Shown piece after piece: positions 910 to 2,672 of a DNA stretch of 34,598 bases. Position 1 is the stretch's first letter; each line of letters starts with the position of its first letter. A model generated the notes under the pieces. It did not search any database, was not told where the DNA came from, and was given only the letters and a program-made list of their open reading frames with translations. The DNA lies in assembly GCA_017883235.1 (NCBI GenBank), contig JADGNY010000074.1, positions 1 through 34,598 of the forward strand. The letters run 5' to 3'. The translations under genes and the position numbers were made by a program. The stretch is from Thermoanaerobaculia bacterium. GTDB lineage: Bacteria > Acidobacteriota > Thermoanaerobaculia > Gp7-AA8.

Positions 910-1752
910 TTACTCTCCGATCAGAGCCGCGAAAGGTGATTGGGAAAGGGGTAACCAGGTTGCGCCGCACTTTTCGCAGACATGGTCTGCCGACGTGAGG
1001 CGGCCCATTGTTATCCATTCTTTGATCGTTGCGCCGGGCACCGGACCGTAGGTCTGGCGCGTAGCGGTGTGGAACACGAAGAACTCCCTCGCATCTGGCG
1101 GCGGGAGTGGAGGGATAGCGATGGGAGGGGGAGACGGCGGTTGAGAGTTTGATGCCGTCACCGGCTTCGGCGTGTTGACTGGAACGCCATGCCTTGCCAG
1201 ATTCTCGAGGAAGACTGTCTGGATATCGTCGTCTTCAGCTCTGACGATTCCAAAGCCTATCCACTCCTGCCGTTGTTTCTTCTGGTTGCAGAAGAACAAT
1301 GCGCGGTACCTTTCGCCACTGTCAGTACCGCTGCCCAGAGATAGTTTGTATCGCATGGTAAAGCCGTCCATCGGAATATTGGCACATCCGCTCACGTCGC
1401 CCCATGGAATGACGAGGCGCACCGTGTGGGTTGTAGCGGCCGTCGTCAATAGACTTGCCATTGTGGCCGATTGCACGCCACTGCCGATAGCGGCAGCCTT
1501 CTGGCCACGGTAGAATAGCAAGGCTCCAAAATGGAAACCATCCTCCTTCAGTTCCAATAGTGTGGCCTGTGTGCCATAGAGAAAGCACCGAGCACCCGGG
1601 TGTTCTGCCAGGGCTTCCAGTCCCACAGCTTCCAGCAACCAACAGCCAAAGCGGCCCTGAGCGGCCGCCAGTAGGCGCTTCTCCTTTTCTTTCGCCGCTG
1701 CTTCGTGTGCTTTTCGCTCTTGGGCTTCCTTCTTGGAGCGCGAGTCGAACAT
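910..1752 (-). CDS. GYF-domain-containing hypothetical protein (putative integron cassette)
   Basis: A 280-residue protein without a recognised enzymatic domain. The first 35 residues are highly charged (Lys/Glu/Ala) and likely helical. Residues 36-190 form an unknown domain with several strands ('CFLYGTQATLLELKEDG', 'TVRLVIPWGDVSG', 'YRALFFCNQKKQ'). A Pro-rich linker follows at 204-220. Residues 224-276 fit a GYF_2 domain ('TYGPVPGATIKEWITMGRL', closing Trp at 266), a fold that usually binds proline-rich peptides. A CEKCG pair (259-263) lies inside that domain. The start is supported by GAGGAGGAG just upstream. On the minus strand the gene begins 107 bp after the attC site at 1859-1963, as a second cassette would. 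Its own attC is not visible; a repeat copy abuts the stop codon instead. Confidence 0.7.
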   Translation of the reverse strand: MFDSRSKKEAQERKAHEAAAKEKEKRLLAAAQGRFGCWLLEAVGLEALAEHPGARCFLYGTQATLLELKEDGFHFGALLFYRGQKAAAIGSGVQSATMASLLTTAATTHTVRLVIPWGDVSGCANIPMDGFTMRYKLSLGSGTDSGERYRALFFCNQKKQRQEWIGFGIVRAEDDDIQTVFLENLARHGVPVNTPKPVTASNSQPPSPPPIAIPPLPPPDAREFFVFHTATRQTYGPVPGATIKEWITMGRLTSADHVCEKCGATWLPLSQSPFAALIGE

Positions 1753-1858
1753 ACTGGCTCCTCCTCATGCTTCAATCGTGACGGGTTTGTCCTTTGTCCG
1801 GACCTTTCAAAAGGGCTGACGTGCCAGGCACTTGCCCTTGATAGGGAATGGGGTATGG

Positions 1859-1963
1859 GCCTAACGGATCCAGCTTCAGCCGCGCGGACCCGCACGCCGA
1901 ATAGTAACGTACTTGGGACCCAGCAGGTTGCGGGTGCGCGTCGGCTGCAAGCGCAAGTTGGGC
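1859..1963 (-). other. Integron attC recombination site
   Basis: Read on the minus strand, the site opens with GCCCAAC (1963-1957; fits R'' RYYYAAC) and closes with GTTAGGC (1865-1859; fits R' GTTRRRY). Inside lie an L''-like CTTGCAGCCG and an L'-like CGGCTGAAG. These pair except for one extra G in the L'' arm, the extrahelical base that gives attC sites their direction. The total length of 105 bp lies in the known attC range. The orientation places the zinc-ribbon gene (2012-2374, minus) as the cassette ending in this site and the GYF gene as the next cassette. I judged this from core consensus and pairing by eye; no covariance search was run. Confidence 0.8.
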
Positions 1964-2011
1964 GGCGCCACCATCAGTCGCTGCGATGCTCGCGCTCAAT
2001 CCATCTCGACT

Positions 2012-2374
2012 TTACGCGGGCTTGAGCTTCAAACCGCCACCGAGAATCCCAAACGCACTGAAGTGCATCTCATAACGGGTGGCCTGCCCATCGAGTATCT
2101 GAAACACTGCAGAGTTCGAGAGGCCGCCACCGCGAACATCGACTTGATGGTCGCCTGCAAGGAGATCGAACGTAACTGAGCCTCCCTTCTTGATCTCGCC
2201 GGCCGGCTGCCCGTCGATAGTTATTTGAACAGCGTACATCTCTCCAGTCAAAGCGGTCTTCCGCCAAAGTATGAACTGGCCCGCCCCTCCCGGGTACGAG
2301 ACGCCGCATTTGGGACAGGTCTTTGCCGAGCCCGCCACTTCAGCCCCACATTCCTTGCATGTAACAAGCGCCAT
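2012..2374 (-). CDS. Zinc-ribbon protein, integron cassette gene
   Basis: A 120-residue protein starting 'MALVTCKECGAEV'. I chose the ATG at 2374 rather than the longer frame to 2422 because GGAGG lies 7 bases ahead of it. Residues 6-20 carry two CxxC pairs (CKEC and CPKC), a rubredoxin-like zinc ribbon. The remainder (about 30-120) is beta-rich with 'ITIDGQPAGEIKKGGSVTF' and 'AGDHQVDVRGG', resembling small Ig/PEGA-like domains that present a peptide in an extended strand. No membrane segment or signal peptide is visible. The gene is bracketed by an R'-like core (2417-2423) upstream and a full attC (1859-1963) downstream, so it fits a single-gene cassette of about 560 bp. The function is unknown. 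Confidence 0.75.
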   Translation of the reverse strand: MALVTCKECGAEVAGSAKTCPKCGVSYPGGAGQFILWRKTALTGEMYAVQITIDGQPAGEIKKGGSVTFDLLAGDHQVDVRGGGLSNSAVFQILDGQATRYEMHFSAFGILGGGLKLKPA

Positions 2375-2416
2375 CCGACACCTCCAGTGAACGACCCGAA
2401 TGTTTCTTCTCAGTCC

Positions 2417-2423
2417 GCCCAAC
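2417..2423 (-). other. Cassette junction core site (R', GTTGGGC)
   Basis: On the minus strand GTTGGGC matches GTTRRRY and lies 42 bp ahead of the zinc-ribbon start codon. It is preceded by GTCGCTGAAA, which looks like an L' arm and can pair with ACAGCGAC 9 bases further upstream. No good R'' is seen, so this is either a decayed attC or an attI-type site. Confidence 0.5.
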
Positions 2424-2579
2424 TATGATTTCAGCGACATCCTCCCAGTCGCTGTTTCCACGCCGACGTCGCGTAATCTCCTTCATGATACGCGGAAAGG
2501 GGCGGGTAACGTACTCAAAACACCTTGGTTAGTCCTTCGGCGAGCTGAATGCGGGAGAATGGGTGACTCCGTTCGTCGT

Positions 2580-2672
2580 CTAATCTCCGAGGGCATCGAG
2601 TGGGCTCCGCACTGCGTTTGCGTCCAGTCCAAGGACGTGGGTGTAGATCATGGTCGTCTTGACGTCGGAGTG
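2580..2672 (-). pseudogene. IntI-type tyrosine recombinase, C-terminal fragment
   Basis: The last 30 codons of a tyrosine recombinase are preserved up to a TAG stop: '[15 protein letters not shown]' and then '…[10 protein letters not shown]'. The Tyr of 'TMIYTHV' (codon 2645-2643) is the DNA-attacking residue of the family. The '[13 protein letters not shown]' wording with an 'RSPLD' tail is typical of integron integrases rather than XerC/XerD. Similarity ends exactly at the His codon; the expected 'LLG' before it is replaced by 'FPI', so more than 90 percent of the gene is gone. The break is 16 bp from a 134-bp element with inverted ends. The 3' end of the fragment, not its 5' end, faces the cassettes. 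Confidence 0.8.

Follow-up and report, generated by a model that had tools for sequence, protein, structure and literature searches.

The question raised by this locus is whether a fragment of a recombinase gene, a folded recombination site and two genes, all read in the same direction, are what is left of an integron whose integrase gene runs toward its cassettes. An earlier note, made from the letters of the DNA, had proposed exactly this. To our knowledge, the divergent layout is the subject of almost all integron research. Chromosomal integrons with the inverse ('reverse') layout have been described in Treponema (PMC3607928, PMC7691350). Within the soil/freshwater clade of IntIs, the inverted ones reportedly constitute a sub-clade (PMC8352920). 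The Acidobacteriota are among the phyla listed with integrons (PMC8618304), and a covariance model for the attC sites of Acidobacteria exists (PMC8352920). The layout of acidobacterial integrons is not stated in the literature that we found, subscription papers and supplements aside. We analyzed a stretch of 34,598 nucleotides from a Thermoanaerobaculia bacterium (hereafter, the window), and conclude that the locus is almost certainly the decayed remnant of an inverse chromosomal integron. We use the term "inverse" because intI, attI and the cassettes are co-oriented.

On the minus strand, the C-terminus of IntI is followed by attI, a zinc-ribbon cassette, an attC site and an incomplete GYF_2-like cassette, and all parts from the intI remnant to the second cassette share one reading direction (Table 1). 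With an IntI match, an attI core, matches to attC models and comparable loci in relatives, the proposed relic with co-oriented integrase and cassettes is borne out. The two cassettes lie on the minus strand in the order previously given, but the second is incomplete and lacks an attC of its own. Since only 30 codons of the integrase gene are retained, the locus is a relic and not a complete integron. An Rfam search of the window at the gathering threshold returned zero matches.

Table 1. Parts of the integron relic and its flanking repeats in the window, and other intI pieces in the host genome
Feature	Position	Strand	Details
Dispersed repeat, left	754..916	no strand	truncates 3' end of array; terminus AACGAAGGCCTGACCCTA (892-909) faces integron
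Cassette 2 gene, 280 aa, GYF_2-like C-terminal domain	910..1752	minus	ORF; PF14237 E 7e-4
Cassette 2 start	1864	minus	own attC absent
attC of cassette 1	1859..1963	minus	R'' 1963-1957, R' 1865-1859, extrahelical G 1948 and A 1941
Complete cassette 1, 558 bp	1865..2422	minus	from TT of attI cut to G of own attC cut
Cassette 1 gene, 120 aa, N-terminal zinc ribbon, weak DUF2846-like middle	2012..2374	minus	PF13240 E 3e-5
attI region, ~160 bp	2417..2582	minus	core GTTGGGC 2423-2417
intI 3' remnant, last 30 codons and stop	2583..2672	minus	TIGR02249 E 1.1e-9; similar to intI of G001
Dispersed repeat, right	2679..2832	no strand	truncates intI; termini TAGGGTCAGGCCTTCGTT (2687-2704) and AACGAAGGCCTGGCCCCA (2806-2823)
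intI piece C165	host genome		nearly full length, split over two frames
intI piece C184	host genome		internal gap of ~375 bp relative to G001
intI pieces C50, C88, C13, C19, C202	host genome		broken

The evidence for IntI in the window rests on the 30 C-terminal codons, whose family identity is clear. Their top NCBIfam match is the integron integrase model TIGR02249, over the last 28 positions of the profile (288-315), and the one other NCBIfam match is a second integron-integrase model. We rejected XerC/XerD or a phage integrase as the identity of the fragment, as no such model matched at E 0.01; the fragment is of the IntI type, as the earlier note had suggested. The remnant is 80% identical over 87 bp to the intact intI of a genome of the same genus (G001). 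A search of the host genome's contigs revealed eight broken intI loci, i.e., that of the window and seven others. An intact IntI was not found in the host's 246 contigs, which are rated 100% complete, although one interrupted by a contig break may have escaped detection.

The GTTGGGC motif beside the integrase remnant had been proposed as a recombination core, and comparison with other relics that have the attI in common establishes it as the core of attI. Among the window, C50 and C13, identity is 93-98% in the 60 nucleotides preceding the G^TT cut and falls to 17-26% after it; for the window against C13 and C50, the values are 95-98% and 24-26%. Similarly, C88 and C184 are 98% identical before the cut and 26% after it. 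This second attI type extends to C202, to G001 and to a genome of the same family (G005), which have the end GGGCTCAATAACAAG in common and differ in their first cassettes. There are two separate attI types, in each of which homology stops at G^TT. An identity break at precisely this position is predicted if different cassettes have been inserted into one attI, and the break among the three relics of the window's type identifies its attI as a site of cassette insertion.

Several additional observations concern the attI regions. A conserved GTTACGATC lies roughly 90 nucleotides before the core in L034, L012, L010, L015 and L035. Its counterpart in the window's group is GTTAC, near window position 2510, a candidate binding site or promoter. 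These motifs are reminiscent of the GTTACG repeats of attI1. Window positions 1750-2720 contain no consensus sigma-70 promoter or terminator. An attI-like piece that is 77% identical to window positions 2421-2516 occurs in the host at G000:C107:1105-1202, with no adjoining intI detected in the IntI search.

The attC site spans 105 nucleotides, with R'' GCCCAAC and R' GTTAGGC. It is the top match in the entire window for each of three covariance models, with identical limits and strand, so the proposed site was located exactly by covariance search. The R1 model scored it at 103.7 bits. Because the window's site is itself part of our alignment of 18 sites from the host genome and its family relatives, we built two further models, neither of which contains any sequence of the host genome. 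R3, which uses only sites from other genomes of the family, gave 68.8 bits (E 2.9e-16). R2, comprising 21 sites exclusively from Pseudomonadota, gave 29.8 bits (E 2e-5), and this was its sole match in the window with E up to 10; as its sites were originally located with R1, R2 is independent in sequence and not in discovery. In the 18-site alignment, compensatory double changes are present at 14 of the 20 inner-stem pairs, and 93.6% of cells are paired, vs 31-38% after shifting the partner by 1-3 columns. An extrahelical A is present in L'' of all 18 sites and an extrahelical G in 17, while L' has none, and this one-sided placement fixes the direction of the attC. The R''/L''/L'/R' arrangement had been recognized correctly, but not the single extra G ascribed to L'', as there are two extrahelical bases. 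Throughout the host's contigs, 41 attC matches were found, 36 of which have E up to 1e-5 and are distributed over 23 contigs.

Neither cassette protein has a relative among the 147 other genomes of the class. Cassette proteins normally lack relatives elsewhere. The Pfam matches in Table 1 are both below the families' own cut-offs, PF13240 just barely so. PADLOC gave zero matches for both proteins, and the GYF protein had zero matches in the plasmids searched. Cassette 2 ends without a terminal attC and is not a complete gene cassette; none of the three covariance models has a match between 754 and 1752.

What truncated the locus is suggested by its edges. Both sides are flanked by dispersed repeats, each of which directs a common 18-bp end inward. 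This end, AACGAAGGCCTGACCCYA, has 51 copies in the genome at up to 2 mismatches, vs 0 for a reversed control pattern. The left repeat is 93% identical to a copy on C150 and 85-89% identical to others on C212, C219 and C133. It contains the final codons and stop of the GYF ORF, which explains the absence of cassette 2's attC. The distance between the right repeat and the outermost retained intI codon is about 6 bp. This repeat matches a stretch of C50 near 44,915 with 90% identity over 155 bp; it has inverted ends, covers ~137 bp and is MITE-like. From these edges we infer that the window's copy was truncated on both sides by dispersed repeats, with loss of most of intI and of the last attC. 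Together with the 30-codon remnant, this agrees with the earlier description of the integron as decayed.

However, repeats on both sides with 18-bp ends facing the fragment might also indicate that the relic moved in as a repeat-bounded unit, like a MITE-style composite, rather than decaying in place. In Acinetobacter johnsonii, an integron is reported to be truncated on either side by copies of one MITE (PMC3934969). Here, the two repeats are different elements with only the end motif in common, and neither a target duplication nor an empty site was found. The window's left flank (1-892) has no match in the two other species of the genus. We consider such a transfer unlikely.

The layout itself could be secondary, if intI had been inverted at this locus in a formerly divergent integron. 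We considered the layout in relatives. IntI exceeds the family cut-off in 41 of the 149 genomes of the class. Among the 44 loci read, 25 are inverse, two are canonical (L171 and L187) and 17 have no detectable attC, many of the latter being cut by a contig end; where attC was found, the layout is inverse in 25 of 27. Three contigs of the family (L035, L036 and L039) stop roughly 300 bp past intI. The same-genus G001 encodes an intact IntI (347 aa, 476 bits) with attC downstream on the same strand, and L034, L038, L041 and L043 are examples of intact inverse relatives. Such intact-looking copies with the same layout in close relatives imply that the remnant is real, and of a known kind of element. 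In the window and in intact relatives alike, intI points to attI and is co-oriented with the cassettes, so the suggestion that the 3' end of the integrase gene faces the cassettes holds. Related genomes provided intact IntI and the same layout, but no copy with the same two cassettes was found. The tentative assignment to an acidobacterium was also correct: the same-family G007 (JAMPYE010000327.1) is a Thermoanaerobaculia bacterium of the phylum Acidobacteriota. In addition, G001 has 46 attC sites in all, with long arrays on C24 and C45 and its only intact intI on C52.

For comparison, among the matches listed for 80 named IntI loci, attC was found at 31, of which 29 are canonical and two, both in Acidobacteriota, are inverse. 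The contig of one of them is that of G007, and this locus is counted once, leaving one inverse locus of 30 elsewhere, which belongs to another acidobacterium. It is important to emphasize that these named genomes are a sample biased to Pseudomonadota, and not a census. The ratio of inverse to canonical loci is 25:2 in the class vs 1:29 elsewhere (Fisher p about 1e-12, which is overstated given the kinship among loci). In a rapidly built IntI tree, whose deep branches are weak, inverse loci do not form one clade, and layout changes at least 5 times, a rough figure. These changes and the two canonical loci are compatible with a local inversion of intI. However, the intact copy in the same genus and 24 other loci in the class are already inverse, and in relatives, too, the 3' end of intI immediately adjoins attI, so we regard a local inversion as very improbable.

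Finally, a piece of a XerC or phage recombinase gene next to a fortuitous hairpin is conceivable given that the fragment has only 30 codons, that GC-rich DNA often contains inverted repeats and that the attC's folding z-score is only -3.0, but the IntI-specific match, the agreement of three attC models on limits and strand, the presence in this genome of seven other intI relics and 35 other attC sites, and the relics whose homology breaks at G^TT lead us to dismiss this explanation almost entirely.

For the favored reading, a decayed inverse integron, we propose the following history. In the ancestor, transcription of intI would have proceeded toward attI, on whose far side the cassettes followed in the same orientation. 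IntI would have inserted cassette 1 at G^TT, the site that the junctions reveal, probably via the folded bottom strand of attC, if strand and chemistry resemble those of known integrons. A later rearrangement at the two dispersed repeats, to judge by the edges, could then have removed cassette 2's attC and left only the 30 3'-terminal codons of intI. The resulting relic is incapable of moving by itself, and its two genes might still be expressed from a putative promoter in the attI region.

The locus resembles the inverse integrons of Treponema in having a GTTRRRY-type core past the 3' end of intI. Unlike them, it belongs to a different phylum, its intI is broken, two cassettes are left and the genome contains several such relics. 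With known Acidobacteriota integrons (PMC8352920, PMC8618304) it shares the phylum and folded attC sites. It also resembles CALINs, clusters of attC without an integrase (PMC7923331), in that attC and cassettes persist while no functional integrase is present, and it resembles MITE-truncated integrons (PMC3934969) in being truncated at repeats. It differs from both in retaining 30 intI codons and the attI core.

Taken alone, the relic in the window is a decayed copy of the ordinary sort. Possibly new are the prevalence of the inverse layout across the class, with the caveat that this may already be on record elsewhere, and the large number of relics within a single genome. A broader generalization is possible, though doubtful: throughout the class, the inverse layout would prevail and be stably inherited, genomes would contain several platforms that have attI types in common and were served by one integrase in trans, and integrases would erode from the 5' end while attI, cassette promoter and cassettes are kept. 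A class dominated by inverse integrons, with near-identical attI sets that have different first cassettes, makes questions about such integrons testable, e.g., the position of the cassette promoter, co-transcription of integrase and cassettes, and the frequency with which the layout flips.

Two other features of the window were noted. At 3650-3715, a long inverted repeat, GTATCTGGAAAATCAACTTA...TAAGTTGATTTTCCAGATAC, adjoins GACCCC and is probably a further dispersed repeat. At 33150-33470, a short-period tandem repeat gives rise to low-complexity ORFs in several frames.
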